Source of the DNA: Telopea speciosissima
Lineage: Eukaryota; Streptophyta; Magnoliopsida; Proteales; Proteaceae
Length of the DNA: 64,000 nt
NCBI RefSeq assembly: GCF_018873765.1
Contig: NC_057917.1
Location: forward strand, 54,181,464 to 54,245,463
Direction of reading: 5' to 3'
Shown: positions 6,218-38,480 of the stretch, in pieces
How the letters are laid out: each line of letters opens with the position of its first letter
Position numbering within the stretch: the stretch's first letter is position 1
The notes under the pieces: generated by a model
Told to the model about the DNA's origin: nothing
The model's database searches: none
What the model saw: only the letters and a program-made list of their open reading frames with translations
Translations under genes and position numbers: made by a program

Positions 6218-9200
6218 ATGGATTTATCGGCAGGTGAGTGTTCAGAACTTAAGCCTGCTGAGGACAAGGATGAAGCCCCAGAAAAGACGACGGTGTCGTG
6301 TGTCGATGGGATTGAGGCAGGGAATAATGGGTCTTTGGGTAATGAGGTTGTGAGCCTCGGCCGTGGAGATCGTGTGGAGATTAAGACTTTGGCGGGGCAG
6401 AGGAATCAGCCGAATGGGAAAGCAATCGGAATTAGACTTGAGAAGCAGCCTGTGGAGCCTCAACAAACTTCAACTTTCTCTGCCACAATTGAGTCTCCTA
6501 CACCATTACCCCCATCGGGAGATACTGCAGCCACGCCAACGACTCCAACGACAGCCAACAAAGGTTATGGTCTGAAGAAATGGAGGAGGATACGCAGAGA
6601 TTTCCCAAAGGAAGGAAGCACCAGTCCGGATTCCAATAGGATCTTGAAAAGGGGGCTTTCCATCCCTGTAGAACCTACGAGACCTCGAGACCCATCTGCT
6701 GAGATCAAGCTTAAGAGCGAAGGATCTGTTGCCTCTGTTAATTCATCTGTTAAGAGCCCCCCCTCTTTTACCAGTGCTCCTGCCATCAAGGGCTCGACTT
6801 CAGATTTAAGGTTGGCGGTGGGATCCACTTTTCCCGTCTGTACCGATTTCGACAACAGCGAGGATCACAGTAGCAAATCCTCTACAGCGGCCAGTGCCCC
6901 TACATTTAGGTATGATGTGCCCGTATTCATGGGAGCTTCCTCCTCGCGAGACAAATGCAAGATCAAGAATTTGAGTGGGAAGATTTCAGCTAGTGCTGCT
7001 CAGAAGGTTCAACAAGGGAAAAGTAGGATTGAGACCAGTAAGAAGTCTAGAGCAGAAAGGTTTAAAATTGAAAAGGAAAATTCGTATTCCAGCCTGGAAT
7101 CCGACTCCAGAAGCTCCAATGTCCTCTTTGCGCAGATGAAAACCTTTTCTGGGATTAGTAATGGTAGACAGAGTGAGAAGTCATGTAATTATGACGGAGA
7201 GAATGGCGATGAAGCCAATTTAAGTGAGATGCAGTCTAATAAAGGTTATGGCAAAGAAAATGGGGGAGTAGTCAAAGATGTTTCACAGGATGCTGCTGAT
7301 ATGTTGTCGGAAGTGAGGGAAGAAGAAAATGATAACCATCAGCCCACAACAGATCAGGATCCTTTGGTTGATTCAATTCTTTCGCTGCAGTCATTGCAGG
7401 AATCACTTGAAAGAGGTAGGTCTTCCTCTCTTTGCCTGCTATTTTTACTCCATTTCCCCATTTCTGAGATCTGAAGTTATTCGTGTTGTTTTGCTTTCAT
7501 GCCATCCTTGCTTTTATATCATAGTGCATTTTACTGTGAATGTATCAGTATGCTCTTTTGTTTGTCAGTGTTTAGAGCTTTAAGTTTTATTCTATGTTTT
7601 CAGGTAAAATTTTTCTCTAGTGTGAGATGATGTACTGATGCATCTACCACTAAAACTTAGAATCTGAAAGTAAAATATTTGCAGAAGGAAGAAGGTCAAG
7701 TGGCGATTCATTAGCAAGTGTGCTTCTTGGTTTTTGCTCACTTCTATAGCTTTCCATTTTCATGTGGCACATCTCTGTCATCGCTTTCCTTTCTTAATTT
7801 TTCTGTAATGGTTCTCAGATTATGTTAGTTTCTTAGTGATATTTGTTCAAAATGTCTGAGTATTTCTGTGTGCTTCTTACTAATATGTATACCCTATTAG
7901 GAAAGATATTTTTTTTAGTATTTTGTTAGATTTTAAATGAGAGACCTCACGGTCGGAATTAAATGAAGAGCCTCCCGGTGAGACCTGAGAGACCGGTGAG
8001 CCCCTCACTCTCATCCCAGGTGGTTAACCCATCACTCTCACCTTCAGATCTCTGTGTTGAATGGTTTCACCACTGAAACGGCCCTAAACCCTAACCCCTC
8101 ACCACTGCAACGACTTTCGCCCTTGATCTCTGTGGAGCTGCTCTGGGAAGATCCTCGCCGAAATTTCCAGATTCAGGTACATAACCCCCCTCACCCCCAT
8201 GATTCTCTCCCCGATGATTTTTCTCCCTACCGCTATTGACGCCCTTCACTCACCCACCATCCCCACAACCTCACGCACGGCTGTATATCTATTTTTCCCT
8301 CTCAAAGATCTCCTCGCCTCCTCGATTCTTTCCCACAACCATTTATACCCTATTTCTCCCACCCTACCACTAGCACCCACTCACCTACCCCGATTATCTC
8401 TCCCCCATCACCTGTGATTCCCCTCCTCGCTGATCTCCCAACCCCCAACTCACACAGCCACTCACATCCACGATTCCTTTCCCACAATCTCATCAGTTAC
8501 CTTCTCTCCCACCTCTACTCTCACCCAATCCGACTATCCCTTCTCCTCCTCTCTTTTCGACTGTGGCTCTCCTTCCATCTCCCTGCTCTCTCCGGCTTTC
8601 CTTCAGTCCCACTCACCACATTAACGAACTCGATTACTCTCATCACACCCCCGATTCTCCCCCACCCACCGATCATTCCTCACAGCCCAAATACAATATC
8701 CACTTACCCACCCCCGACCAATCATCTCCAGGTCTTCTCTATTATACTCCCCCTACCCTGCATCCCGCTCACCCACTGTGCACTTTGCCTCAACTCTGGT
8801 ATTGGTGACAGACCTTTGAGGTGACCTGAGAGCAACCTTGTTCCTCGGTGAAACTGTCTCGTGAAGCTCTGTAATCAGTTGGTTACGCTATATTACATTA
8901 CTCCGGTAAGAGTCTTCGGCACCTTCAGCCGAAGGGCAGCTTGGTTACCCTAGCTTCTACCGCAGTAATAACCTTTTGTATTTCGTGTTTTGTATTGCAT
9001 GCGATTAAGTCTCCCTCCCCATCGTTACTTTACCTATGGAATGTTTCATTACTATTACAATTGTATCTAGATTGTTATTTATCCGATACTATTGCCACAT
9101 TACTTTCTTCAACTATTAATTCGTTGGCCACTGTTGTTTATCTGTGAACTGTTTGTTCCTATACTTCTGTGCATCTCTACAATACGTGTTTGGGTACTGT

Positions 9201-12200
9201 CTGCTAGTATCCCTCTTTGCAAGTAGTTCTATTTGTGTCACTTTCTTTTGTTTATTTGATGCTGAAGCATTAGGAATGCCCTTTTTTTGTATTCCTTTAT
9301 TATCTTGCTCATCCACTTATAGATATTTATTTTTCTATTTTATTGGAGTGTTAGGTAGGCAGCTGGGACCGTGCTATATATATTTCAGCCAATCTCTTTT
9401 ACATGGATCCTATCTTTTGAGTTTTTTCTTCCTTTTCCTTTTTTAAGCTTCATGTCTTATCGACCGTCTGCTAGGATGTCCCCTTTTAGCGCCGCGCCGC
9501 GTCATTACTCGGATGCGGTGACAAGTAGACAAGGGTGCCCGTACATTGGACATGTGTGAGTTAAAAATCGAGTCCATAAGTGTGGGATTAGATTAGCTTC
9601 TTCGAACATTGGTTCCTTAACGGGTAAGAGCATAGAGTTGATAGATATTACGAGGAGAAGAATAATAAATATTGCTTGCATTCAGGAGACTAGATGGAAG
9701 GGTAAAAAAGCTAAAGTGTTGGATGGCTTTAAAATTTGGTATACAATAGACCAATGTAATAGAATTGGAGTGGGCATTGTAATGGATATAGACCTTAAGA
9801 ATGTTGTGGTGGATGTTAAAAGAATTGGAGATAGGATTATAACCATCAAATCGGTGTTGGAAAAAGAGGTCAGCAATATAATCAGCGCCTACACTCCATA
9901 AGTAGGATTGGATGAAAGTAGTAAGATCCAATTTTGGGAACACATGGATGGATAATGCAAGGTTTCAGTCAAGGGGATAAGATTATTATCGGGTGGGCTC
10001 TAAGTGGTCATGTTGGGAGAGATCGTAGAGGCTATGGAAGCATTCATGGGGGCTATGGAGTTGGAGAGAGATGAATGAGGAGGAGACCTCTGTTTTAGAC
10101 TTTGCGGTAGCTTACTATTTATCCATTATGAACACCTTTTTCGAAAAGAGATGGGAGCATTTGATCACCTATAAAAGTGGACATCATACCAGCCAAATAG
10201 ATTTCTTCTTAACAAGAAAGTCTGATAGGCTGTTTTGTAAAAACTGTAAGTTTATCCTGGGGGAGAGTTTAACCACTCAACATAGATTGGTAGTCTTGGA
10301 TTTTTGCCTCTTGTCGCAGTTTCGTAAGATAGGGGATCCAATTTGCCCTAAGATAAAGTGGTGGAGATTAAAAGGAGATTCCTTGAGGTCATTTATAGAT
10401 AACATGGTCGAACAAGGAAGGTGGGATCTTGAAGGCGGCACAAATTCGATGTGGAACAAGATGACGGCTTGTATGAAGAAGGTTGCAAAGGGGGTACTAG
10501 GGGAATTGAAAGGTAAACTTCTTGACCCTAGGGAGTCTTGGTGAGGATGATGGGGTCCAACCAGCCATTAAGACTAAGAAAGCTAGTTTTAAAACATGGC
10601 AAAGAACGAAGGAGGTAGAGGATTTAAAAAGTTATAAATCTGCCAGAAATGAAGCGAAGAAGATTGTGGGGAATGCTAGGGCGAGGAAATATGATAATCT
10701 TTATAACAACCTGAACACCAAGGAAGGGGAAAATGCTATCTATAGGATAGTTAAAGCAAGAGAAGGGATGAGTAGAGATGTTGACCATGTTAGATGTATA
10801 AAAGATGAAGATGGTAAAGTATTAATAAGAGATGAAGACATTAGGAAGCGATGGAATTAGTATATCTGTAGTCTTCTAAATGAAGATGTTTTGAGTAATT
10901 ATGCCCCTTCAAGCTATATTACTAATCTTGACACCACTTGCCATAGATATATACACAAAATCGGAGAGTTTGAAGTCAAAGAAGCCTTAAGAAGGATGAA
11001 AGTATGCAAGACGCCAGGACCAGACGGAGTTCCAATCGAAGTGCGGAAGAGCCTAGGATTATGTGGCTTAACCTGAGTAGCCAAGTTGTATAACAGGATT
11101 GAGTACAAAGAAAATGTCGGATGAATGAGGAAAAGCACTATGGTCCCGATTTATAAAAATAAAGGTGACTTTCAGAGCTGCAATAACTATAAAGGCATAA
11201 AGCTAATGAGCCACACAATGGAGTTATGGGAGAGGGTTATCGAAATGCATTTGAGAAAGGAAACAACTATTTTGGAGAACCAATTTGGCTTTATGCCAGT
11301 TAGATCCACGATGGAAGCTATTTTCCTATTAGGAGACTCATGGAAAGGTATAGAGAGGGGTAAGAAGGATCTTTATATGGTCTTTATTGACCTTGAAAAA
11401 GCCTACGATAGAGTCCCTAGAGAACTTATCTGGCACATACCTGAGAAGAGAAGGGTGCCATGTAAATACATGGACATCATTAAAGATATGTATGATGGCG
11501 TGGTGACTAGCGTAAAATCTGCAGGGGCTCAAGGTGGTGAGTTTGCAATTACGCTTGGGGTTCATCAAGGATCAACCTTTAGCTCTTACTTATTTGTGCT
11601 TATCATGGATGATTTAACCCGAGACATACAAGATGAGATCTCTTGGTGTATGCTTTTCGCTGATGATATTGTTTTAGTGGATGAGACAAAAACAGGGATA
11701 GCGCCAAGTTGGAGTTGTGGAGATCTACCTTAGAATCAAAAGGTCTTAAGATTAGTAGAGTAAAGACAGAGTACATTGTGTGCAACTTTAGCCACACTAC
11801 GGCGGTTGATGAGGTGGTCAATATTGATGATAAAGAGATACCTCAAAGTGATTTTTCAGATACCTGGGCTCTATCGTAAGTAAAGAAGGCGATATAGAGG
11901 ATGATGTTTCCTATAGAATTAAAATAGGATGGTTGAAGTGGAGAGGAGCAAGCGATGTTCTGTATGATCGGCGTATTCCTGTAAAGCTCAAAGGAAAATT
12001 TTACAGGGGTGCCATTAGACTGGCCATGATGTATGGTGTGGATTGTTGTGCAGTGAAAAAGCAGCACGTTGATAAAATAAGTGTGGCAGAGATGAGGATT
12101 TTGAGATGGATGTGTGGCAGACTAGGAAGGATAAAGTTAGGAATGACCATATTAGAGCTGAGTTGGGAGTAGCCCCTATTCATGAGAAGCTACGAGAGAG

Positions 12201-15200
12201 TTGTTTGAGGTGGCATGGTCATGTTCAACGGAGGCCTCGGGATGCACCAGTGCGGAGGACTGACCTGATTCAGATTGAAGGATCTAAAAGGGCTAGGTGT
12301 AGGCCTAAAATGACCCTAAGAGAAGTAGTGAAGAAAGACATGCATAGTTTGGGCCTTCTCTCAAGCATGGCCTCGAATAGAGATGTTTGGAGAACAATGA
12401 TCCATGTTACCAACCCCATTTAGGTGGGTTTTCCGAGAGAGAGTAAAAACTGATTAGGATCAAACATAATTAATTCTGGTCAAAATCAGCTGTGTTCTTG
12501 ACGCAGTTAGGCATAGGGTTAGTTAGGGATAATAATGTAATTTGCTTTTCTTTTATCTTCTTTTTGTTGGTTGTTAATAGCAAGTAAGAGTTAGAGTTTG
12601 TTTCAGTTAGAGTAGAAGTTTTAGAGTTAACTTTTACTTTCAGTTTCAGGATAAGATTAGAACTGTTTTTGTTAATTCTACAAGGCACCCTTTGTTTAGG
12701 CTTAGGTGGGGGTGGGAGAATTAGGGTGGGAAAATGCTGATGTGGCACTTCAAAATCCCACCCCAACCTTGTTTGGTTATCTTGTGGTGGTGAACTTACA
12801 AAAGCTAAGGGAATATCATTAATTGCTTTGTCTGCTGATGTGACACTTCAAAATCCCACCCCTAGCCTATCCAAAGTCCCACCAAATTGGTGGGATTTTG
12901 GTTACTATTCATGAAAAAAGTAACGTTACCTCAACATTTCCACCCCAATAAAACCCCACCAACATGTGGATCCCCATCTTCCCAACAATCCCACCCCACC
13001 TTCCTCCCTAAACAAACGGGGCCTAAAGCAGCATGTAACCCATGATTTGGATGGGATTTTTGGAATGAAATATTGAAAAAAACTGAGTTTACCTCTCATA
13101 GTGTTTCTGTGCTGCTGTTTGCGCTTCAAACTTCTCTCCTCCTCTGGTTCATCGTTTCTCAGGTCAGACTTCATCATCTAACCTCTAACCGCCTCCTTTC
13201 TATTATCTATTTCTATTTCAGCTTATTAAAGAGCTTTTGGTGGTACTCTGTTCTGGGTGATAGTTGCAGCCCACAAGAAGCTGATTGATCTCTGTCATAG
13301 TAGATCCATTCGACCTGGTATATTGTGTGCAAGTCAGTCACTCTCCCATAGGCGACCTAGCACCTACGGTCTGGTTCCCTAATAATCACTCTATATTGAG
13401 AACTAAATCTGAAACCCTCGAGTTCTTGTCTACCGCTTGGATCAGTTTCAGAAAATTTTACTCAACTTTCAGGTTGTTGAATCATGTACTTGTTGAATCG
13501 ATTCAATAGGCCTAACATCTATGAATAATCACCTGAAACTTCAGGTTGATTGAAGGCCTCTTGAGAGAGTTCTCTCTTTTGAATCAGACTTGGGTGTACG
13601 CCCTTGTTGGTCCTTTGTGAGGTTGAAGAAGATAGTAAGTTTTCATATTTACAAGTAGGTCCAATTCCTTTGATGATTAGTCATAAGCCCTTTTCCGTAA
13701 TAAGTTAATTCTGTTTTGTCTCCATACTTTCCTGAATTTCCAGTTTTTTCCCTCATCCTGTTAACTTACTAAAAGGAGTCTAGAATTTCCATTTAATTAC
13801 ATAATTACCAGTACAGTACTATACTTGGATTGTTGTCATCTGAGTGGGCCCATAGCGAACCCAAACAGGGTTGTCGAACCCTGGGATTGCATCAGTTCTT
13901 CTGTGGCAACCATGGAAAAAAAAAGAGATTTAAATGAATGTCTTTGGTTCTGTGGCTCTTGACATTTCAGATACAATCAGATGATCTTGGCATTGTATTC
14001 TTGTGATGCAGTATTAATTGAATGGGTTAACTAATGTCAGCTACTATGAGGTGTAGGATCAACATAAACAGGCTCAGATGTCGGCATTCTCTACTTGGAC
14101 CTGAAGAAAAAACAATTATCTGGCCAATTTATGAGTTAAATAGTCTAGCCTAGTTTCTCTTGTCCTTAGTTCAACAACAACAACAACAACAACAACTAAG
14201 CCTTATCCCAACTATATGGGGTGGGCTACATGGATCCATACAAAGACAAAGTATAAATAATAATAGGAAAAAGAAGGAAAAAGAAAGGAACACAGCAACA
14301 TCAACAACAACTCAGCAATATCCCACCTAAAAGGGGTCCGCTACATGGATACTTGCCCTCCAATTAGCTCTATTCGAGGTCATACTTGGGCCAAAACCTA
14401 AACTATGCATGTCTTTCCTCACTACTTCTCCTAGGGTCATTTTAGGCATGCCCCTAGCTCTTTTAGTTCTTTTGATCTGAATCAGATCACTCCTCTGTAC
14501 TGGTGCATCCCAAGGCCTCCTTTGAACATGTCCATGCCACCTTAAACGACTTTCTCACAGCTTATCATGTATCGCCATATCGGGGCAACTCCCAAATCAG
14601 CTCTAATATGGTCATTCCCTATATATCCTTCCTAGTTTTGCTGCACATTTTTTTCTTAGTTGTTTTACATCATTTTTTTTGGGGGAGGAGGTGTTAATGA
14701 TTTAATTTACTTTTATCTTAGAAGAGAGTTGGCCAAGGCATGTAGATCAAGACTTTAGGGCTATACCCTTGGGGTTTCCTGTGGACTGTTCTGTTCCTAT
14801 TTCTCTGTTAGTGATGCTCCTGAATTCTTTCTAGTTCTTAAAACAGTATTTCTTTTCCTTTAACTTACTATATTCTTTCAATTTTTAATTCTTTCCTTTG
14901 TTTTTAACCCCAAACAACATTAATCAATATTATAAACCTATTTCAAGTCCTAGTCCAATTGCCACACAGTCAATGATTGCTGACATTCTCTGGTTTTCTC
15001 ACGTGTAAAATCATCCACCCCTAACATTAGTGGAGGAATCTGCAATAAGCTAAAAGCAACCTTTTTTTATCGTGTTTTTCAAATTTCCACCTCAACTTTC
15101 AGTTACAACAGCCTTTATCTCTCTTTCTTTTCACCGATTTTCTGAACCGCAGAGTGCCATATCCAGAAGGTATTCGTTAAAACTCCTTAACCTGAACTTC

Positions 15201-18200
15201 CAATAATAAATTCTAAGTTGTGAATTTCCTCTCTTCTAAAGGCTTAAAACTCCCGTCAGATCTTATATTTTTTATTTAATTTTCTCTTTTTGTTTCTTTG
15301 GTTTTCAGTATCTGTCTGATAGGTGTCTGGAAATATAATAGTTAGATTGCACCTCTTAAGATCAACAGGGGTTATGTCCCATCTCTCTCTCTCTCTCTCT
15401 CTCTCTCATATCATGGCTGAATCACAGAAAATGATCAACTGCCCTGAGGAGACAGCTTTGATGCTGGTCTCATCCTGAAGGCACTTGAGGGAAGGAGATT
15501 CGGAGTTTGTGAATCTGCAAAATATGATTAAAATGCATTCCCTACTGTTCTTATTTTATGGATCTGAATAGGAACAGGGCCACTTCCCAATTGTATTCCC
15601 ATGTATAAGAAGGCTACTCCTAATATGTTTCAAACACCATTAGGGTTACCTAGGGTGCTATTTTGGAACTACCTTTGATGGTGGGTGTTATTTTGGCCAA
15701 CATTAGGGATCTGATTTGCAATTTACCATTTAAAGTTTAATGCGGAGAAACTTTTTCTGTGTCCCTCTACATTGCAACAAATGGAGCTGAAAAGAATATC
15801 AAACAATCTCCTGGAAAGTGAAGACATTTAATTAGTGGCCTAGTGCTCAATATGTGGAAATGAGTGCATCCTTCTCTTAGTTTATTTATTTTGGCTCCAT
15901 CTGGTTGGATGTGAAGTGTTGTAAATTAAAATATTTTAAGAAGAAAATCCAACACCAGAACAGAAAATAGTAACATTTTGGCTACTAGTTGCAAAGAGAG
16001 TTGAAATATCTTTTTAATTCTACAAAAATCTTGGTTGTGGTAAGTTTTATTTTGCATATTTTTTTAAATATACAACATTTTAGATTCAACAACCCAGCCA
16101 TCAGGACTTGAATTAATTTGTTTGAGTTAAAGTACAAGGTAGTCAAACATGAATTCATTAGCATAATAATATATTACTACCTAAGAAAAAAGTTGCAGCC
16201 TGAAAGAACATTAAGAAAAGATAGATCGCAATATAGTCTCCTGGGTCCAAGATCTGTTTTTCAGGGTTCAGAAGTATCCGACACTCCATGCCTTTGTTAG
16301 ATTTTACACCATGCTATGCAATGTTTCTGTACGTGGAAAATAATTTCTTTCTCTTTTTAATGATGTTTCAGTTTCCATTCTTTTATCTCTTGCATAAGCT
16401 TTTACATGGTCTAGGGCTCTTGCTATCGAGCTGGGATGGATTTCTTTCTGTACTTACCCTGCCACAAGGCACATTTTTCTGAACTTATATAATTAAATGG
16501 TTTGCATTGATAGAAGATTCCACTATATCGTGAGATATATGGCATGGACAGGCACACTGGATATGTCAAGTCTGTATGGTCACTCTTTGATGGAGAGTCA
16601 TGGATTAGCCCCTTCATATATGTACTTGGATATGTGAAATCTCACATGCATGAATGGTGGGGTATATTAGCTCAATTCCTGTTTAGTGCTTCACTTGGTG
16701 GTGCAAGAGCATCCAGCCACAACAAAAAAATTTCTTCTGGTTATCATCCTTATTGGTTTTGGAATTGCTGATGGGATTATAAGATTATTGATATTTTTGG
16801 AGTTAGACGTATGATGCTTACATGGTTTCCATTTTTTTAAGGGAAATTTACGCCTACCACCCTTGAAATTTCAAAAATTACCCCTGTACCCCTAAGTACT
16901 AACTCTGTTAGTTCTGGAAAGAAATGACAATTTTGCCCTTTCTTTTTTCTTAAAGAAATAAACCCACGCCACCCCACCCCTGTTACTGTTCATCTTCAAG
17001 ATCTTGAAACAGCAAATTGTTGATGATTCGCATGACATTGAGACCAGCAATAACTCCAGCATTTTTGGTAGCCTAACACTAGTAGTCATTGAAGTAGGCA
17101 GGAACAGTGACAACGACATTCTTTATTGTGGAACCGAGGTATGCCTCTGCAATCTCACGCATCTTCATCAAAATCATGGATGAGATTTCCTCTGCGGCAA
17201 ATTGTTTCTCCTCACCCTTGTAATTGACCACTATCATAGGCTTGTCACCAGGTCCAGGAATGACCTTGAAAGGCCAAAGCTTGGTATCACCCTGAACTGA
17301 GGAGTCACTGAACCGTCTACCAATCAAACGCTTTGCATCTGGAGAGTGCCATTATCAAATCTTCAAATACATTTATGAAGCAGAAGATACACATGAGATT
17401 TCAAAAACTAGAAGCAAATCACGCAACCACCATATCTAATGCCATGAATTTTAAATTGCTACAATTTCATAAATTTCTAAGCAAGTGATTCAAGGGATTT
17501 CTCCAAATTAAAATCAAAAGCAACAATTACTCACCGAAGACTGTATTGATTGGGTTCATTTCAACCTGATTCTTGGCTGCATCTCCAATCAAACGCTCAG
17601 TGTCAGTGAAGGCAGCATAAGACGGAGTAGTACGGTTTTCCCTGATCGTTGGCTATAATCTCAACACAATCGTGTTGCCACACTTCGACACACGAATATG
17701 TTGTCCCAAGATCAATTCCGATAGCCAGACCCTCACCCTTTCCGGCCATTGTTCTTGCTTTGGAAAGTACAACACAGAAAAGGGCAAGAAAAATCTGAAT
17801 CAAAATTAGTACGATAGAGAAGTTATAGCATAAAGGAATTCTAGGTTTCTAACGATTGATAGAATGAAAAACTCTGCCTCCATCATCCGGAGTGATGAAT
17901 CTGAAACCTTTCTAGGCGTTGAACCACTTCACCACTCCGATAGAGGTTGAAGGAGTACTGTGGGTCGGAGTTGCAGGAAAGAGGTTGGAGGAGGGGGAGG
18001 AAGAAGGGTAAAAGGGTCATGTTACATGGACCCAGGGTTAGTTTGGGGATTAAAAAAATTCCAGGGGTATTATGGGCATTTAGATTACATTTGGGCAATG
18101 ACATCATCACTTAACTGTTCTCATCTAACGGTAGGGGTACGTTTGTAAGAATCTTTCAAAATACAGGGGAGATTTATGAAATAGATGAAATTCCAGGGGT

Positions 18201-20330
18201 GGTAGACGTAATTGTTTGAAACCACAGGGGTGGTAAACGTAAATTTCCCTTTTTTAAATTATTTAGCATGGAATTTCCATTTTGGACTTTAATTTAATGT
18301 TTTGGTCCATTTATATTTGCAATTTTAGAAAGTGTGAGTTGTACATACCATTGATCTCCGGGGCCATATTTGTGTCAACCCAAAGGAACTCATTTATTTT
18401 CTCACCACTTTTCCCAAATTATTTTGGTCTATCCCTTGGTCTTTTAACTCTAAGCTGCATCATCACTCCTCCTTCGTAGCACTCAGTGGCCTATTTTGTA
18501 GATGCCCTACCATATCACACCTTTCCTTCAACTTATCCTCTATCAAGGTCACTTCAAATCAACTCAAAATTTATACTTCCTAGCTTTTCCATCATCCATC
18601 CTCTATCAAGGTCACTTCAAATCAACTCAAAATCTATCAATTCTTATTTTATCTTTTCTAGCTTTGTTTATGTCTTGTTTCTTTGCCATCCAAGATTTAG
18701 TCCCATGCATTTGCACGTCTGTAATAGGGGGTTAAGTTTTATGTGTCCTAATTTAGGCTCAGCAGGTTTGATGAACTGAATATGACTTTTCCTGGTTGGA
18801 ATTAACATATTCCTTCACTCTTTAGATAGTATTATAATGATTTCGGCATTGGTTGGTGTCACGTTGATTGCAGCATTGGTTGGTGCCTTGATGTCTCTTA
18901 TTGCCGCTTCTTGTTATATATGCTGATTTATTTGTGAGACTTCTCGGATTTAGTTTCCCAAAAACCAGCATCCCCCGTGATTTTTCTTGGTCATATATTT
19001 GCTGAACAATTTTCAGTCCTTTCTTTCTGTAGGTTTCTTTGGAAGTCTTCTAATTTAATTCTCCTTGACGTATGAGCTTACTCATGTCTAATGTGCTACA
19101 ATCTGAGATTTAGCTCATGTAATTTGTGGTTCTCTTCAGAATGAGTAGTTGACTAGCTGTTTTAACCACTTTCTTCTCATGATTGACCCTGCAGTGTTAA
19201 TCACTGCGAGACATCGCAGAGGATCCACACTCCCTATCTCATGGTTGTTGAATGTGAATTATTTTTTCTTCTTCTTGAAGTTATGGGTCTTTTCTTCTGT
19301 TTTATCGGTTTTTTTTTTATTCTTCTTTTGATTGGGGAAGGGGGTCCATATTCAGCTGAGTTTGAAACATTTGACCTGTATCAACATTGTCTTTCCATTT
19401 GGCAAAAAAAAAAAAGAAGAGCTTCCCATCTGTATTCAGCAAAGGATAGTTCCACAAAGGGACATTTGTTTTCACCACTCAAATACCATCTTATTTATTT
19501 CTAATTAAAACATTCCTACATGTCTGTACAGTTCTTGCAGCTATGTGCTGTTTCCAAAGGATTTTGTTGATGGAACTTTTTTTCCATTTGCAGAAATAGA
19601 AATGTTTGGGGAGATCGGACAAGAATTTGTTTTTCCAGCTAATGAGCCCGTTACCAGTCATTGCTTCGCTGCACAATTTGCTTCTGTTGACCCAGGAAGC
19701 TGTGAACTCAACTCATCTGGTCCTTCGTGCTTTGAAGAAATTGAACCAAACAGTTTGCCAAATCTGGAAGTTCAGTTGAGTAGACTGAAACAGAGTGCAA
19801 ATCTTCCTGAGAGCAATCTTGAAGAGGCAGCAGCCATCCTCAAGGCTAAGGAATCTAGTTTTGAAGATGAAGCAAACAGGGGTGAGTCATCGAAAGAAGA
19901 ATTGGGTAGCAGTCTAAAGTCCCCACAGGGGTTTAGACAGATGGAGATTGAGGTTGAGGATCTGATTAAGCAGAAGATTGAAACTGAAGTTGAGTCTCTG
20001 GTGATTACTAGATCAACTCAGAATTTTAAAGTTGCCACAGCAGACCATATCTCACTCCTTGAGGAACAGAAGTCTCTGGTAGGGGAGCAAACCCAGATGC
20101 TGGAAAAGCTCAGAGATGCTGAAAGTAATGCTGTGTTGTTGAAGAGGAAGGCAGAGGAGTTAGAGGAGTCATGTGGGGAGTTGCTGGGAACTGGAGGGGT
20201 TTTGGAGATGCAGAACAGGGTTTGTAAGTTTACATTTTGCTTTCTTATCCAGTTGATTTTGCTTTTTGTAGCCTTAGGGATATTTATCTTGCAGCTGTTG
20301 CCCCATTACGCAGGGTTTGTACCAACTTAA
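6218..20330 (+). CDS. WPP domain-interacting protein (WIP), plant KASH protein; exons 6218-7415 and 19594-20330
   Basis: The two exons join in phase to 645 codons including stop (644 aa). Exon 1 ends ...LQESLER plus one base before GTAGGT; exon 2 starts after TTGCAG and completes E, giving the family-like run [19 protein letters not shown]. Landmarks are the conserved [13 protein letters not shown] block (about residues 115-127), a long Ser-rich disordered stretch, a coiled coil (about 490-605), a transmembrane segment (about 612-636) and the C-terminal tripeptide VPT. The last two form the plant KASH tail, which binds SUN proteins in the perinuclear space. In Arabidopsis, WIPs sit in the outer nuclear envelope, bind WPP proteins such as RanGAP through the coiled coil, and join LINC complexes that shape and move nuclei. 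I start at ATG 6218 ([11 protein letters not shown]); the upstream in-frame GTG is not a plant start. The 12.2-kb intron is full of transposons, yet both splice sites and the reading frame look intact. Confidence 0.9.
7930..12445 (+). mobile_element. RTE-clade LINE, near full length, decayed
   Basis: Domain order is that of a plant RTE element. The endonuclease (about 9575-10070) shows [33 protein letters not shown] and VGLDESS. The linker follows, then reverse transcriptase (about 10890-11710) with [31 protein letters not shown] and [10 protein letters not shown], then the C-terminal block (about 11860-12420) with [12 protein letters not shown] and LRWMCGR, ending in the typical [10 protein letters not shown]. 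Several stops and frame changes break the frame (for example after SAYTP at 9901 and at 11076), so it is dead. The pyrimidine-rich 7930-9560 stretch is probably its 5' untranslated part, but that edge is a guess. No (TTG)n tail or target duplication was identified, so the 3' edge is also uncertain. Confidence 0.85.
9575..12423 (+). pseudogene. RTE endonuclease/reverse transcriptase polyprotein remnant
   Basis: Single ancestral ORF of the LINE above, now in at least five pieces in different frames (9638-9901, 10071-10544, 10522-10860, 10891-11076, 11125-11733, then 11933-12423). The RT catalytic FADD is intact. Automatic pipelines may call pieces of this as host genes ('craniofacial development protein 2-like' is a frequent mislabel of this endonuclease); it should not be counted as one. 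Confidence 0.85.
12683..13024. mobile_element. MITE-like element inside the WIP intron
   Basis: Ends are near-inverted: 'aggcaccctttgtttagg' on the left and the reverse complement of 'cctaaacaaacggggcct' on the right (16 of 18). An internal phrase 'cacttcaaaatcccacccc' occurs twice (about 12746 and 12844). No coding capacity. TIRs of the AGGCCCCGTTTG type are common in plant MITEs. I could not find a convincing target duplication, so the superfamily is left open. Confidence 0.7.
14171..14652 (-). mobile_element. two RTE LINE 3' ends, one behind the other
   Basis: Reverse-strand copies of the 3' part of the same LINE family as at 7930-12445. The outer one starts with (CAA)8 at 14172-14195, which is a (TTG)n tail on the minus strand, followed by 'ctaagccttatcccaact'. 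A second tail-like 'caacatcaacaacaactc' with 'ggggtccgctacatggata' begins near 14300. The rest, to about 14652, aligns in reverse to the LINE bases ~12100-12425 (shared 'catgcatagtttgggcc' and 'ggaaggata'). Both are 5'-truncated. Confidence 0.8.
15382..15407. repeat. (TC)n microsatellite
   Basis: About 13 uninterrupted TC dinucleotides in the WIP intron. Confidence 0.9.
16841..18249. mobile_element. Pack-type DNA element carrying an HSP70 fragment
   Basis: The outer ends are inverted: left 'gggaaatttacgcctaccac' and right the reverse complement of 'ggtaaacgtaaatttccc'. Similarity continues inward ('cacccttgaaatttc' against 'cacccctgtggtttc'). An 8-bp direct repeat TTTTTTAA flanks it (16833-16840 and 18250-18257), though this is low-complexity. 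There is no transposase. Inside, on the minus strand, lies a fragment of a cytosolic HSP70 gene with its intron still present, so the capture was at DNA level, as in Pack-MULEs and other Pack-TYPE elements. The superfamily (Mutator or hAT) cannot be settled from this copy. The right arm resembles that of the element at 20700-22995. Confidence 0.72.
17015..17749 (-). pseudogene. captured cytosolic HSP70 5' fragment (two exon pieces plus intron)
   Basis: Exon piece 1 (17749-17535) reads MAGKGEG, then [19 protein letters not shown], then VEIIANDQG, the ATP-binding start of cytosolic HSP70. One extra A in 'gggaaaacc' then shifts the frame; the next frame continues with an [19 protein letters not shown]-type run. 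A GTGAGT donor ends the piece. Exon piece 2 (from 17338 after CAG) reads [12 protein letters not shown], then [10 protein letters not shown], after which two stops replace the usual S-Q-R-Q region, then [15 protein letters not shown] and an abrupt end. The intron lies in the position and phase usual for plant HSP70 genes. The substrate-binding domain and most of the ATPase are absent, so no chaperone can be made. Confidence 0.88.
18535..18633. repeat. 63-bp-period direct repeat
   Basis: The phrase 'atcctctatcaaggtcactt' with following 'caaatcaactcaaaat' occurs at 18535-18570 and again at 18598-18633, identical apart from what follows. Small tandem duplication in the WIP intron. Confidence 0.85.
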
Positions 20331-23351: not shown

Positions 23352-24874
23352 TGGGAAGCAGCAGGAGTGGAGTTTGGCATTGGGGTACTCCGCCCCGGGC
23401 TTCTATCCCTTTCACGTAAAGAGTGTTCAATAGCCCCATCGGGCTGTTCTTCATTTCCATCTGCAACATGATTTGCTAAAGCCATGAAACGATTCCCAGC
23501 ATGCATGATAGAGGAAGGCCGAGTAGGGAGACCAATAGAAGCCACGTGTGGTGCAGGTCTGGTGTTTGCCGTTGGAATCAAACCTGGCGCACTCGTGTTA
23601 ACAACGTGTGGCACTAAAGCTGGGCCCATAGAGGAAGTAGAAGTAGGTTGAGTAACTGTTTTTGACGTGGACCCCATCTCAACTATATTAGGGCCATGAC
23701 TCTCCAACCGCCCACTACTTCTCTCCATTTGAACCAAAGAGGGATCAGTTACCTCCCGTCCGTTTCTTGCCACAACTTTTCCAACAACAGGAGTGGAGAT
23801 TGCACGTTGGGGAGTCGTAACTGCCTCTCCTCCGATAACTATCACCACACTGCCGGCAACTACAGTCACACCACCAGAAACAGTCACGCCACCACTAGTA
23901 GCAGATACTCCACCACCCTCAGTGTCACCACCTGTAGCGGTGTTATCGAACTCCGCAGGCACAGGTCTCTTTGCCCTAGATTGTCGCCGATTGGGAGCCT
24001 TCCAAGGATTATCAATCTGCAGCATCTTACCTTGGCTCTGTGACTATTGCTTTCCCGATTGGGGGCCCGAATGGTCCGTATGACCAAAGACTTTGCAAGA
24101 GCTGCAAATAGACAGAGCCCAATCATACTCAACTTTTTGCTCTATAGTTGAACCATTATCAAGCACAATTGGAATGCTATCCGGCAGACCATCAACAACA
24201 TTAACAAGAACACAAAACCAGGCAAATGATAAATGCTCACGATTTGAGGTTCTTCGGTCCACGCAGATTGGCTTTCTAAGAACGCTAGCTATTCTTCCCA
24301 AAGATTGGGTGCCCCAGAAATGAAGGTTCAAGCCATAAAGTCTCACCCAAAGGGGTAGTCTAGTCTCCTCCTTCTTGGATAGGGAAATATTTGGTGTCCA
24401 TGGACGAAGGACAAGGGGGCGAGCACCCAAAGTCCAAGGACCCTCATTCAGAATTTGAAAATTGAGATCAGTGTCCTGGAAATCAAAAATGAAAATGCCA
24501 CTTTCCAATCCAAACACTTCCACTGCTTCGACATGCACCCATTTCTCCTTAACAAAGTGCTGCATCATAGATAAAGAGGGGCAAGGTCCGAAAACAAAAC
24601 CCACTAGGGCTGATTCGCATCTACCTTTCTCATAAGCTAACTCCTCCGAACTGCAATGTGCTACCTTTTTTCCATCGACAACAGATGGCTCAATAAAAGG
24701 GATTTCATCGGCCCCATCTTGGACTTGCCCTCCTGAAAAGAGACTAGCCCAAGAGTGGGAGGAAGCCCTGCGACTGTTATCAATAGGACAGACACTATTG
24801 AATGCATGGGCTACCAGAGTGCCAGCACCGGTGGCCATTGATTGTCTATTGGCCGTTGTAGAGTGCTTCTTCAA
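23348..24874 (-). pseudogene. L1 ORF1 (DUF4283 plus zinc knuckle) with one in-frame stop
   Basis: Begins MKKHSTTANRQSMATGAG. A DUF4283-type domain follows with ALVGFVFGPCPSLSMMQHFV, WVHVEAVEVFGLESGIFIF, ILNEGPWTLGARPLVL and LPLWVRLYGLNLHFW. A knuckle-like CSSCKVFGH motif comes next. One TAG at 24046-24044 interrupts the frame; beyond it the same frame runs on for 226 codons, low-complexity and rich in Val, Thr and Gly, to a TGA at 23350-23348. Family role: RNA-binding, gag-like partner of the L1 polymerase. With a single stop the copy is not very old. Confidence 0.78.
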
Positions 24875-24999
24875 AATCGCCTACAGTGCTCTTCAAAATT
24901 GCCTTCAGTCCACTTTCTATTTACACCCAAACGAATTCCAGCTCAGCCATCCAGCGTCCTTCACGAACTATGTCATTGGCAAAAGAACACAATCAAAGT

Positions 25000-30311: not shown

Positions 30312-31274
30312 TTATCCATGGAAGCTGCAGAAACGAGGTTTCTGGTCGGTCTCTGTTGCCGAATTGTTGGAAGAAGATGCACGCTCAGCTGCCAGCCCAG
30401 CAGGCCTATTACTAGTAATGAAAGAGACAGACTTGATAACTTCATCATTATCGTCTTCCATGGATGATGACACTGGCATCTCGTTCAGATCAAAATCTAA
30501 CATCACACGCCCTGTCTTACTGATGATATCCTCCGGCGGCGCCGATGCCACGGAGCTGGACGGAGCTGTTTCGGCTGTGCTCATCCAATGACACCTCTGG
30601 TGGCCTCCAAGGGCCTGACCCGTCTGGAATGTCTTGTTGCAAATTTTGCAGGGATAGGACGACGACTGTGTTTGTGAATCTGATTCTTCTTCTTCTTCTT
30701 CATCATCAGTAATCTTATGGCTTGACCTGTGTCCACCTAAGGCTTGGTGCGAGGTGAAGGTTTTATTGCAAGTCCTGCACTTGAATCTATCCGACAAAGT
30801 CGCTGTCGTTGTCAATGGCTGCTGCTTGTAATCAATCGGACCCATCTCTACGACTCTCTCCAGATCTCTGAGCTTCATCTTTTTCTTCTTCTTCATCTTC
30901 AGCTTCTTCAACTTTTGACCCAAAACCATCTCAAACATGCAAGAGAGCTGATCGGACTGATCTGGTTGACCTCGGATGAGTGAGCTGCAATCAGTACTGG
31001 TCTTGCTACACGAATCTCCCTCCTCCTCCTCCTCTAATCTCCCGCTGCTCGGTGAAGTGATTGAAAGCTTCATGGGTAAGGGTTTAGGTAGGTATTTTGA
31101 GTTTTGTACACCATCTGACTGTGATATTGACTCCTCGTCGTCTTCGCTTTTTCGCTTCTTTGACAAATTCCCCAAGGTTTGAATAGGATCTTCAATTCTG
31201 TTTCTGTAAGAGTTTGAATGTGATTTGCTGTTAGCAAGCATCATAAGCTGATAGGCGGCTTCCATGTCGGGCAT
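30312..31274 (-). CDS. ZAT-like C2H2 protein, C-terminal half of split copy A (320 aa)
   Basis: Begins MPDMEAAYQLMMLANSKSHS; this Met is internal in the intact paralogue at 36250-38076. It contains an NLS-like KKLKMKKKKKMK (about 123-134), two fingers of the plant QALGGH type (about 165-187, FKCRTCNKTFTSHQALGGH; about 208-229, YPCKICNKTFQTGQALGGH) and an EAR-type repression motif DFDLNEMP (about 260-267). It overlaps the N-terminal ORF by 44 bases in another frame. As a separate protein it would keep paired fingers plus repressor motif, the usual layout of two-fingered C1-2i ZAT proteins, but nothing here shows an independent promoter. It may simply be the dead 3' half of a frameshifted gene. 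Confidence 0.7.
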   Translation of the reverse strand: MPDMEAAYQLMMLANSKSHSNSYRNRIEDPIQTLGNLSKKRKSEDDEESISQSDGVQNSKYLPKPLPMKLSITSPSSGRLEEEEEGDSCSKTSTDCSSLIRGQPDQSDQLSCMFEMVLGQKLKKLKMKKKKKMKLRDLERVVEMGPIDYKQQPLTTTATLSDRFKCRTCNKTFTSHQALGGHRSSHKITDDEEEEEESDSQTQSSSYPCKICNKTFQTGQALGGHQRCHWMSTAETAPSSSVASAPPEDIISKTGRVMLDFDLNEMPVSSSMEDDNDEVIKSVSFITSNRPAGLAAERASSSNNSATETDQKPRFCSFHG

Positions 31275-32148
31275 AGGGTATTGCTCCTCCGAAGCCGAAG
31301 TCGAAGCCGAAGCGGAAGCGGATGGGGGAGGAACAACAGCATGGATGGCTTTGCTGCCTCTTTTCCCAGTGGCGGACCAGCTGGAGAAGATTAAGAGCTG
31401 AGCGAACGGTGGTGGTGGTGGAAAGGGAAGAACCTATCTGATCATCTCTCAAGTTAATTGTTTTTAACTTTCCGGGATGGTGATAGACACCACAAGAATC
31501 TTTATCTGATTGAATGGTGGCGGAGGAAATGCTAGTGCTCTTCTTGAGTCCTGTTGCAGCAGCAGCAACTGGTAATGGGGGTGGAGATGGAGATGAAGAT
31601 GGTGGCGGAGGCGGTGGGGGCTGAATTCCTCTCCATGCCCTCTCGGGATGACATCTCATGTGACCGAACAACGATTTCATCGATTGGAACTTTTTTCCAC
31701 AAAGATAACAGCTAGGGTTGCTGCTGCGCTCATCAATCATCGTCTTTGTCTTCGAGTTCATGGGCCCACCAGGTGAGGCATAACCGCCACCATTGCACGA
31801 TTTCTTGGTGTTGGTGTCAGAGATTGGGAAGTTATCTTGGAGTTGAAGCTGCGCCTGCTTCTCCTGCACCTGAGTCTGTGCCTGTGGGTGTGCGTGAATC
31901 CTCATGTGACCTCCCAGAGCCTTTCCTGATCCGAAGCCCTTTTTGCAGACCTTGCATATTCGATTCTCCTTTCCTGAGCTTCGGTTGTGGTTCTGGCCCT
32001 CTTCTATGAGCTTGATCTGTAGGGCTTTCTTGGTAGGTGACACCGATCGTTCCGATGACCCAGACCCAAACCCAGAAAGATTATTGGGTTTTTGCTCGCT
32101 CTCTCGCAAGAATTGTTCATGGTGATCTGAGCTCTTCCGTTCATCCAT
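31231..32148 (-). CDS. ZAT-like C2H2 protein, N-terminal half of split copy A (305 aa)
   Basis: Starts MDERKSSDHHEQFLRES, as in copy B. Two C2H2 fingers: RICKVCKKGFGSGKALGGH (about 65-85) and SCYLCGKKFQSMKSLFGH (about 147-167), then a proline-rich run. Near 31381-31398 it departs from copy B: between 'gctctt' and 'aaaag' it has 39 bases where copy B has 50, a net loss of 11. The final ~60 residues (SHPCCCSSPIRFRFGFDFGF and on) are therefore out-of-frame text, and the EAR motif and the last two fingers are lost from this frame. The start codon is supported by conservation with copy B. A transcript with a small intron could in principle repair the frame. Confidence 0.7.
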   Translation of the reverse strand: MDERKSSDHHEQFLRESEQKPNNLSGFGSGSSERSVSPTKKALQIKLIEEGQNHNRSSGKENRICKVCKKGFGSGKALGGHMRIHAHPQAQTQVQEKQAQLQLQDNFPISDTNTKKSCNGGGYASPGGPMNSKTKTMIDERSSNPSCYLCGKKFQSMKSLFGHMRCHPERAWRGIQPPPPPPPSSSPSPPPLPVAAAATGLKKSTSISSATIQSDKDSCGVYHHPGKLKTINLRDDQIGSSLSTTTTVRSALNLLQLVRHWEKRQQSHPCCCSSPIRFRFGFDFGFGGAIPYARHGSRLSAYDAC

Positions 32149-32600
32149 GAAGAAGAATAGGAATAATCGAGAGAAAGGTAAAAGAATGATAATAATAAAA
32201 AAGGGTCTGACGAAGCAGCTTAGGTCAACCCATAGATTACGATTCGATTCGATTCGATTAGATTAGATTTAACCCAAAAAAGAAGACAGAAAGAGAGAAG
32301 TGAGTGAAAGACGAAACGGACTGCAAGTGCGCAGCTGAGACTTGGACGACTGAAGTATAAAAAGGAGGAGTTGAAACAGAAAAGACGGAGAAGATCAATC
32401 AATAGCTGAAAAAGGAAAACAGAAGCAGAGTTACATTGTTTAAGAAGACAATCGAGTCAAAAAAAAAAAAATAAAAAAATTTGTCTGCAGATAATCTCGT
32501 CAATGGAGTGGAGCTGAAGAAGAAGAAGATTGAAAAAGAAAGGAAGCATCCAATATTAGAAGAGAGACAGTAACTGCGACTGACTAATGGTCACGTTCAT
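32149..32600 (-). promoter_or_regulatory. 5' flank/UTR of ZAT-like copy A
   Basis: Conserved with the flank of copy B (38077-38480), including 'acgattcgattcgattcgat' at 32239 against 'acgattcgattggattcgat' at 38148 and 'aagaagacagaaagagag'. Likely 5' UTR and proximal promoter. No TATA box can be fixed by eye on the minus strand. Confidence 0.5.
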
Positions 32601-36249: not shown

Positions 36250-38076
36250 TCAACTATAGAAGGTGCACAAATGAAGTTTCTGGACAGTCTCTGTTGCCGA
36301 ATTGTTGGAAGAAGATGCTTGCTCAGCTGCCTGCCCTGGCCTACTATTAGTAATGGCGATGCCTATACTCACAGATTGAGTGAAACAGACTGAATTGATA
36401 ACTTCATCATCTTCTTCCATGGATGATGACACTGGCAACTCGTTCAGGTCGAAATCTAACATCACACGCCCTGTCTTACTGATGATATCCTCCGGCGGCG
36501 GCGCAACGGAGCTGGACGGAGCTGCTTCGGCTGTACTCACCCAATGACACCTCTGGTGGCCTCCAAGTGCCTGACCCGTCTGGAATGTCTTGTTGCAAAT
36601 TTTGCAGCGATGGGGCGACTCTGTCTGTGTCTGTGACTCTGGTTCTTCTTCTTTTTCTTCAGTAATCTTATGGCTTGACCTGTGTCCACCTAAGGCTTGG
36701 TGTGAGGTGAAGGTTTTATTGCAAGTCCTGCACTTGAATCTATCCGACAAAGTGACTGTCGTTGTCAATGGCTGATGCTGTTGATGCTTATAATCAATCG
36801 GACCCATCTCTACAACCCTTTCCAGATCTGTGAGCTTCATCTTTTTCTTTTTCCTCCTATTCAGTTTCTTCAATTTCTGATCAAAAACCATCTCAACCAT
36901 GCAAGAGAGTTGGTCCGACTCATCTGGTTGACCTCTGATGATTGAGCTGTAAAAAGTACTGGTCTTGCTACCCAACTCTTCCTCTTCCTCCCCCACTCTC
37001 CCACTGCTCGGTGAATTTGGTATGGGTCTGGGTAGGTATTCTGAGTTTCGTGCGCCACCTGACTGTGATATTGACTCATCGTCGTCGTCGCTTCTTGGCC
37101 TCTTTGACAAGTTCCCCAAGGTTTGAATAGGACTTTCAATTCTGTATCTCTGTGAGTTTGAATGTGATTTGCCGTTAGCAAGCATCATAAGATTATAGGC
37201 GGCGTCCATGTCGGGTATAGGGTGTTGCTCCTCCGAAGCCGAAGCGGATGCGAATGGGGGAGGAGCAGCAGCAGCAACGATGGCTTTGCGGCCCCTTTTC
37301 GCAGTCACAGACCAGGTGGGGAGGGGTTCTGCAATAATAAGAGCTGAGCATGCGGTAGCGGAAAGGGAAGAACCCAGTTGATCATCATCTGTCGAGTTTG
37401 TCTTTAACTTTCCGGAATGGAGATAGGCACCAGAGGAATCATCTTCATCTGAGAGAGTAGAGGGGGAGGAAATACGAGTACTGTTCTTCTTGAGACCTGT
37501 TGCAGGAACAGCAACTGGTAATGGGGTTGGGGGTTGAATTCCTCTCCATTTCCTCTCAGGATGGCATCTCATATGACCAAACAACGACTTCATCGATTGG
37601 AACTTTTTTCCACAAAGAGAACAGCTAGGGTTGCTGCTACGCTCATCAATCATCGTTTTCGTCTTCGAGTTCATGGGCCCACCAGGTGAGGTATAACTGC
37701 CAATCCACGATTTCTTGTTGTTACTGTCAGGGATTGGGAAGTTATTTTGGAGTTGAACTTGCGTCTGCTTCTCCTGCACCTGTGGCTGTGCGTGAATTCT
37801 CATGTGACCTCCTAGAGCCTTTCCTGATCCAAAGCCCTTTTTGCAGATTTTGCATATTCGATTCTCTTTTACTAAGCTTCGGTTGTGGTTCTGACCCTCT
37901 TCATCTGGTGCGCCGCCGTGATCACCGTGACTGTAGAGTTTCAGCTTGATCCGTAGGGCTTTCTTGATAGGGGACACAGATCCCTCCGATAACTCAGACC
38001 CAGAAAGATTATTGGGTTTTCGATCGCTCTCTCGCAAGAATTGTTCATGGTGATCTGAACTCTTCTGTTCATCCAT
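36250..38076 (-). CDS. four-finger C2H2 zinc finger protein, ZAT1/4/9-like repressor (608 aa)
   Basis: Intact single-exon ORF, as usual for this intron-poor family. Fingers: 75-95 (CKICKKGFGSGKALGGH), 152-172 (CSLCGKKFQSMKSLFGH), 447-469 (CRTCNKTFTSHQALGGH) and 489-511 (CKICNKTFQTGQALGGH). Three have the plant (Q/K)ALGGH DNA-contact helix; the second is the variant KSLFGH. An NLS-like KKLNRRKKKKMK lies at about 403-414 and an EAR/DLN motif DFDLNELP at 541-548, which in this family recruits TOPLESS-type corepressors. Expected role: nuclear DNA-binding repressor, often in stress or developmental responses; the targets cannot be read from sequence. Most three-finger ZATs are ~300 aa, so this ~600-aa, two-plus-two-finger layout is large. 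It is the tandem duplicate of the split gene at 30312-32148. Confidence 0.9.
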   Translation of the reverse strand: MDEQKSSDHHEQFLRESDRKPNNLSGSELSEGSVSPIKKALRIKLKLYSHGDHGGAPDEEGQNHNRSLVKENRICKICKKGFGSGKALGGHMRIHAQPQVQEKQTQVQLQNNFPIPDSNNKKSWIGSYTSPGGPMNSKTKTMIDERSSNPSCSLCGKKFQSMKSLFGHMRCHPERKWRGIQPPTPLPVAVPATGLKKNSTRISSPSTLSDEDDSSGAYLHSGKLKTNSTDDDQLGSSLSATACSALIIAEPLPTWSVTAKRGRKAIVAAAAPPPFASASASEEQHPIPDMDAAYNLMMLANGKSHSNSQRYRIESPIQTLGNLSKRPRSDDDDESISQSGGARNSEYLPRPIPNSPSSGRVGEEEEELGSKTSTFYSSIIRGQPDESDQLSCMVEMVFDQKLKKLNRRKKKKMKLTDLERVVEMGPIDYKHQQHQPLTTTVTLSDRFKCRTCNKTFTSHQALGGHRSSHKITEEKEEEPESQTQTESPHRCKICNKTFQTGQALGGHQRCHWVSTAEAAPSSSVAPPPEDIISKTGRVMLDFDLNELPVSSSMEEDDEVINSVCFTQSVSIGIAITNSRPGQAAEQASSSNNSATETVQKLHLCTFYS

Positions 38077-38480
38077 GAAGAATAAGAATAATCGAGAGAA
38101 AGGTAAAAAAATAATTTAAAAAACGCCTGAGATCAACTGGTAGATTACGATTCGATTGGATTCGATTAGATTTAACTCTAAAAGAAGACAGAAAGAGAGA
38201 GAAGAAGTGATAGACGAAAAGAACTGCAAGTGTGCAGCTGAGATACTTGAACAGTTGAACCACAGAAGCAGAGTAACGTTGTTTAAGAAGATGTATCTCT
38301 ATCTCTCTCTGTCTCTGCAGATTATCGTCAATGGAGTAGAGCTGAAAAAGTTTGAAAAAGGGCACAAGCATCCAATATTAGAAGTAGTTGAAGAAGAAAA
38401 AGAAGACTCGTTCGTCAAGAATTCAATATCAACAATGGATATCCTTCCAAAAATAAAAAACCCACTCACCCAGTAACTAG
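38077..38480 (-). promoter_or_regulatory. 5' flank/UTR of ZAT-like copy B
   Basis: Conserved with the corresponding flank of copy A, which argues that it includes transcribed or regulatory sequence. A 'ctctatctctctctgtctct' stretch lies near 38300. No core element can be placed with confidence. Confidence 0.5.

Follow-up and report, generated by a model that had tools for sequence, protein, structure and literature searches.

In this study, a 1409-bp element with terminal inverted repeats (TIRs) was found to carry an 846-bp 5' fragment of an HSP70 gene, intron included, within a 12.2-kb intron of the WPP domain-interacting protein (WIP1-like) gene of Telopea speciosissima. The element is very probably a Pack-MULE, a Mutator-like element that is non-autonomous and depends on a MULE transposase acting in trans, and it represents a clear and well-supported new instance of a well-known kind of element, an ordinary Pack-MULE. 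Positions below are those of the window (the whole stretch of 64,000 nucleotides that was analysed), and its features are as follows, with the basis of each in brackets.

16841..18249, no strand: non-autonomous element of 1409 bp, very probably of Pack-MULE type (TIRs, flanking duplication, recurring ends)
16833..16840, no strand: left target-site duplication copy TTTTTTAA; 9-mer TTTTTTTAA from 16832 (flank comparison)
18250..18257, no strand: right target-site duplication copy TTTTTTAA; 9-mer TTTTTTAAA to 18258 (flank comparison)
16841..16997, plus strand: left terminal segment (shell), of which 16841-16875 form the left inverted repeat (common to the family member L029)
16998..17018, no strand: ~21-bp spacer from the left shell to HSP70 (sequence comparison)
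17019..17864, minus strand: captured HSP70 5' fragment with 5'UTR, exon 1, intron and start of exon 2 (similarity to the C1 HSP70 genes)
17535..17749, minus strand: coding part of HSP70 exon 1 (frame broken by a 1-bp insertion)
17339..17534, minus strand: retained HSP70 intron, 196 bp (alignment to genomic HSP70)
17019..17338, minus strand: first part of HSP70 exon 2 (in-frame stops)
17865..17907, no strand: ~43 bp between HSP70 and right shell (sequence comparison)
17908..18249, plus strand: right terminal segment (shell) (conserved end, the last 185 bp, 18065-18249)
6218..7415, plus strand: WIP1-like coding exon 1 (spliced model and NCBI protein)
7416..19593, plus strand: WIP1-like intron holding the element (spliced model and NCBI protein)
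19594..20330, plus strand: WIP1-like coding exon 2, ending with the stop (spliced model and NCBI protein)

The element, its family and its target-site duplication

The boundaries of the element proved correct to the single base. The left end at 16841 reads GGGAAATTTACG... and the right end at 18249 reads ...CGTAAATTTCCC; the inverted arms of 37 nt are 84% complementary. Compared without gaps, the termini agree at 31 of 40 positions, a value reached by none of 200,000 random pairs of 40-mers from the window (best 26). The TIRs face outward and are more than 75% identical, the property that PMC3903597 uses for coding MULEs. The inverted repeat that can be aligned between the two ends is ~40 bp long, which is short for a TIR-MULE and counts against the Pack-MULE reading. 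No open frame of at least 110 aa overlaps 16841-18249 on either strand, and the interior consists of HSP70-derived sequence and shell; judged by open frames and content, the element has no transposase of its own. Rfam and tRNA scans of the window (the latter with the bacterial code) gave no matches.

The search for relatives covered 823 Mb in 11 large contigs; the T. speciosissima genome is described as 823 Mb in 11 scaffolds (PMC13080361). With the whole element, 78 matches were obtained (40 of 1018 candidates scored). The last 185 bp (element positions 1225-1409, within a few bases) were found at no fewer than 24 other places, with 90-95% identity, some of these places representing the two ends of one element. 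A 25-bp end pattern occurs exactly at 29 places and with at most two mismatches at 298, and its backwards control occurs at none; among 100 of the 298 places, inspected by eye, inward-facing pairs of ends lie ~0.5 to 2.2 kb apart. The initial annotation of a non-autonomous inverted-repeat element thus agrees with both the arms and the recurring ends. Thirty-five genomic stretches were then compared, 31 around element matches and four around HSP70 genes. Both ends could be called in 19 of the 31, the outermost being used where ends were doubled, which together with the window gives 20 two-ended elements. Stretches with a missing or unpaired end (L010, L011, L014, L015, L020-L023, L034, L038, L039 and L041) were left out of the duplication count.

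The 9-mers flanking the 20 two-ended elements are identical in eight cases and match at 8 or more of 9 positions in 17, compared with 5 of 380 mispaired flanks at this level (2 of 380 at 9/9). The target-site duplication of the family is therefore 9 bp, inside the Mutator-like range; PMC3903597 gives as its MULE criterion a duplication of 8-11 bp in which one mismatch or two are tolerated. The remaining three elements, with flank matches of 7/9 (L016), 6/9 (L013) and 1/9 (L024), count against the Pack-MULE reading. At the window element, an exact 8-mer stands on either side, as first annotated, and the 9-mers match at 8 of 9 positions; both values, 8/8 and 8/9, satisfy the 8-11 bp duplication of PMC3903597. 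The exact repeat stands, but its length of 8 bp is not that of the family duplication. Since the family makes 9-bp duplications, the repeat probably started out as one of 9 bp and has changed at a single position; as a T/A run, it would be weak evidence if taken alone.

The exact 8-bp flank of the window copy would also suit a gene-carrying element of the hAT superfamily instead of a MULE, as hAT duplications are given as 8 nt (PMC8903248). Such an origin would call for an 8-bp duplication throughout the family. However, 9-mers are identical in 8 of the 20 elements, whereas an 8/8 match as 8-mers is found in only four (L016, L018, L032 and the window), all with T-rich flanks. The 9-bp duplication of the family favours a Mutator-like element, and for this reason the hAT reading, which we consider very improbable, was dropped. 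A PIF/Harbinger element was rejected as well, with TAA on the left flank, TTT on the right, and family repeats of 9 bp instead of a 3-bp TTA/TAA directly adjoining the ends.

Some relatives are more complex. L012:1305-3036 and L013:1247-2946 carry doubled ends, and L014-L019 do so in part. Each side of L012 and L013 consists of a left-type end and an inverted right-type end. The outer 9-bp duplications of the doubled-end elements are exact in L012 and L019 and match at 6 of 9 positions in L013. In a search for an autonomous partner, the end motif was found at none of 30 PF10551 loci with 1.5 kb on each side (the best of 150 scored among 828 candidates); that no transposase gene with these ends appeared among them counts against the Pack-MULE reading.

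The interiors of the two-ended elements were compared after removal of 200 bp on the left side and 360 bp on the right, a shared stretch being at least 60 bp at 1e-8. Eight of the 20 interiors (L024, L029, L031, L033, L035, L037, L040 and L042) share no such stretch. Among the others, the window copy pairs with L009 through HSP70, and L025 pairs with L032. The doubled-end elements L012, L013 and L016-L019 are the core of a further group, to which L030 is linked by up to 146 bp of shared sequence and L036 by up to 60 bp. An HSP70 match was found in just one of the 19 other two-ended elements, the C5 copy (L009). Family members therefore differ in contents and insertion sites, and the recurrence of the ends around different contents, proposed as a check in the initial annotation, was confirmed. 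Two members carry pieces of other genes. L033:2086-3541, with an exact 9-bp duplication, holds the 5' end of a gene of NDR1-like type: residues 19-113 of its frame match an NDR1-like protein of T. speciosissima at residues 1-105 (56%, 7.1e-24). L040:705-2243, also with an exact 9-bp duplication, holds an F-box_5 fragment (2.6e-8, above the Pfam cut-off). In a Pfam search of ten interior frames from nine elements other than the window copy, the remaining nine frames, that of L033 included, gave no match above the cut-off. Auxin and jasmonate receptors have F-boxes of the F-box_5 type, and this domain sits near the protein start. Both the HSP70 capture and the NDR1-like one comprise the 5' portion of the gene concerned; Pack-MULEs generally favour 5' gene ends.

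Position in the WIP intron

Over 644 aa, the spliced WIP model matches the NCBI T. speciosissima WPP domain-interacting protein 1-like isoform X1 at 100% identity. The two coding exons flank the element, which is thus lodged in a WIP intron as had been proposed. WIP lies on the plus strand and the HSP70 piece on the minus strand, so the fragment is indeed antisense to WIP; judged solely by its location, it would be included as antisense HSP70 sequence in the predicted WIP pre-mRNA. The intron also contains a LINE-like remnant (window 9560-12423), with a reverse transcriptase frame at 11125-11730 (PF00078, 1.3e-24); its frame 9560-9898 gave no profile match.

Beyond being a Pack-MULE, the insertion might now act as a regulatory source of antisense HSP70 within WIP transcripts. 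This would accord with its orientation and with its aligned identity of 89-90% to the HSP70 pair on C1, and a review reports that captured fragments in maize are siRNA reservoirs able to silence their donors (PMC13317346). However, the piece is intronic and shows no sign of constraint. The second T. speciosissima WIP isoform lacks 60 residues inside exon 2 and is otherwise the same, and since the two isoforms found differ solely there, neither of them uses the element. Such a regulatory source is very unlikely. A more specific role, in which RNA from WIP transcription base-pairs with HSP70 mRNA and adjusts the level of HSP70 expression via small RNAs, is regarded as highly unlikely, whether for the window copy alone or for it together with the C5, C4 and C11 copies. 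In the preferred Pack-MULE reading, by contrast, the captured piece would have no selected function and would normally be removed with the WIP intron.

The captured HSP70 fragment and its donor

The two exon pieces of the fragment match the Pfam HSP70 profile (3.3e-28 and 1.6e-8), and its 5'UTR portion is ~115 bp long. Its kin include a tandem HSP70 pair on C1 (L026, C1:26742000-26751999). In BLAST comparison, gaps counted, the identity is 89% with C1:26743002 over element positions 183-970 and 85% with C1:26750456 over 179-1024. No HSP70 similarity extends beyond element positions 179-1024, and the end motif is absent from the 10-kb locus of the pair. Host-gene sequence has thus been captured, and the related C1 genes have no flanking element ends.

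An ordinary duplicated HSP70 pseudogene, with short flanks that resemble each other by chance, would likewise have a broken frame, and HSP70 paralogues, the tandem pair among them, are present in the genome. In the initial annotation, similarity beyond the inverted repeats was named as the sign of such a duplicate; the search showed none, as the similarity ceases within the element ends. Moreover, the ends recur at many places, a single one of the 19 other two-ended elements (that on C5) holds HSP70, and the three other HSP70-bearing copies each have at least one end with the matching junction on that side. A duplicated pseudogene is therefore extremely improbable in our view. A processed, retro-copied pseudogene, in favour of which nothing was found, is the least credible reading of all and was rejected, because introns would be absent from it, whereas the fragment retains the intron 17339-17534 and 5'UTR and is internal to an inverted-repeat element; the intron also upholds the earlier claim of capture at the DNA level.

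The same HSP70 capture occurs at three further loci, on C5, C4 and C11. The C5 copy (C5:61540514-61545279, L009) bears HSP70 between both ends, with flanks matching at 8 of 9 positions. The C4 copy (C4:47971007-47971328, L011) extends from the left end up to element position 284, and the C11 copy (C11:54667897-54668619) comprises element positions 275-320 followed by 738 to the right end. In the latter two, the missing end was not found within ~10 kb, which counts against the Pack-MULE reading; these copies are therefore truncated or interrupted. The C5 copy is interrupted by a nested element of ~3 kb (L009:1969-4974) that belongs to another inverted-repeat family, and ends similar to those of the nested element adjoin the C11 copy (L010:531-885).

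The window copy shares its left HSP70 junction with the C5 and C4 copies and its right junction with the C5 and C11 copies. The ~21-bp left spacer is present in the window, C5 and C4 copies and absent from L029 and L037; the ~43-bp right spacer is present in the window, C5 and C11 copies and absent from L023, L020 and the C1:26750456 gene. L029 has the same left shell as the window element, without an HSP70 match. Near its terminus, the window left shell is ~30-40 bp shorter than the left ends of the C5 copy (L009), the C4 copy (L011) and L029, and so is the left end of L037. Among sites comparing four sequences, 20 group the window and C5 copies against the two C1 HSP70 genes (seven of them in the 5'UTR, where C1:26743002 aligns poorly), and the alternative groupings have one site each. 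In a tree of seven rows, from which the C4 and C11 copies were excluded as too short, the support is 96/94 for the window-C5 group and 83/88 for the two C1 genes. The aligned-base identity of the window copy is 89.0% with C1:26743002, 90.1% with C1:26750456 and 91.5% with the C5 copy. The copies are thus sister to the C1 tandem pair, and the HSP70 fragment was acquired once and is now at four loci or more.

The initial annotation expected the donor to be found among the intact HSP70 genes of the species; kin were found in the tandem C1 pair, but no one intact gene fits. A single intact donor was rejected because each C1 gene shares with the element a stretch that the other lacks (an intron stretch in C1:26743002, a 5'UTR stretch in C1:26750456), and also because exon 2 of C1:26743002 is broken by two 1-bp gaps. 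Given these gaps and an upstream 5'UTR differing from that of C1:26750456, C1:26743002 could be a pseudogene in its own right or reflect an error of assembly. The donor was therefore either an ancestor of the C1 tandem pair or a close paralogue since lost or overwritten. The tandem-pair ancestor is the simpler reading and is preferred; gene conversion inside the pair could imitate the same pattern.

Unique changes are spread evenly over the codon positions in the window copy (5, 5 and 7) and almost evenly in the C5 copy (8, 10 and 13), but unevenly in the two C1 HSP70 genes summed (7, 1 and 9). Though small, these counts fit a window HSP70 piece that drifts without selection on the protein.

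Proposed history and related systems

In the proposed history, an ancestral family member took up a contiguous piece (5'UTR, exon 1, intron and part of exon 2) of an HSP70 gene, either the ancestor of today's C1 tandem pair or a very close relative of it. The acquisition may have occurred by template switching or gap repair; models of template switching and gap filling are discussed in PMC8277862. The capture, probably mobilised in trans by a putative MULE transposase, then spread to four loci or more. The window copy lies in the WIP intron, its captured piece drifting as a pseudogene. One genome holds donor relatives, sibling copies and HSP70-free family members, and the order of events (single capture, then spread, then decay) is thus directly readable. 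The case adds a Proteaceae example to a process described in rice, maize, tomato and Arabidopsis, and leaves the working picture of Pack-MULEs unchanged.

Like Pack-MULEs, the window element is non-autonomous, has inverted repeats and a 9-bp family duplication, carries the 5' part of a host gene, captured together with its intron, exists in several copies and is inserted in a gene; it differs from them in nothing essential, its alignable inverted repeat being short. A literature search by title and start of abstract did not meet with a Pack-MULE with an HSP70 capture, and the match for Mutator-like elements with Proteaceae concerns sacred lotus. In the tandem-TIR MULEs described in PMC3310237, a single captured piece of a gene has likewise multiplied to several loci, and their doubled ends on both sides resemble those of L012, L013 and other relatives. 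The window element differs from them in having single ends, and its doubled-end relatives differ in that the units on a side are of unlike type and not copies of one end. Pack-CACTA and other Pack-TYPE elements, as presented in PMC8903248, are also non-autonomous DNA transposons that capture genes, but are unlike the window element in their ends and duplication length.

Elsewhere in the window, a DUF4283 frame lies at 24047-24880 (PF14111, 6.7e-27); DUF4283 is common in plant retroelement proteins. Two adjoining minus-strand genes, at 30312-32262 and 36250-38115, look related by eye. The former is split across two overlapping frames, and the latter matches C2H2 zinc-finger profiles.
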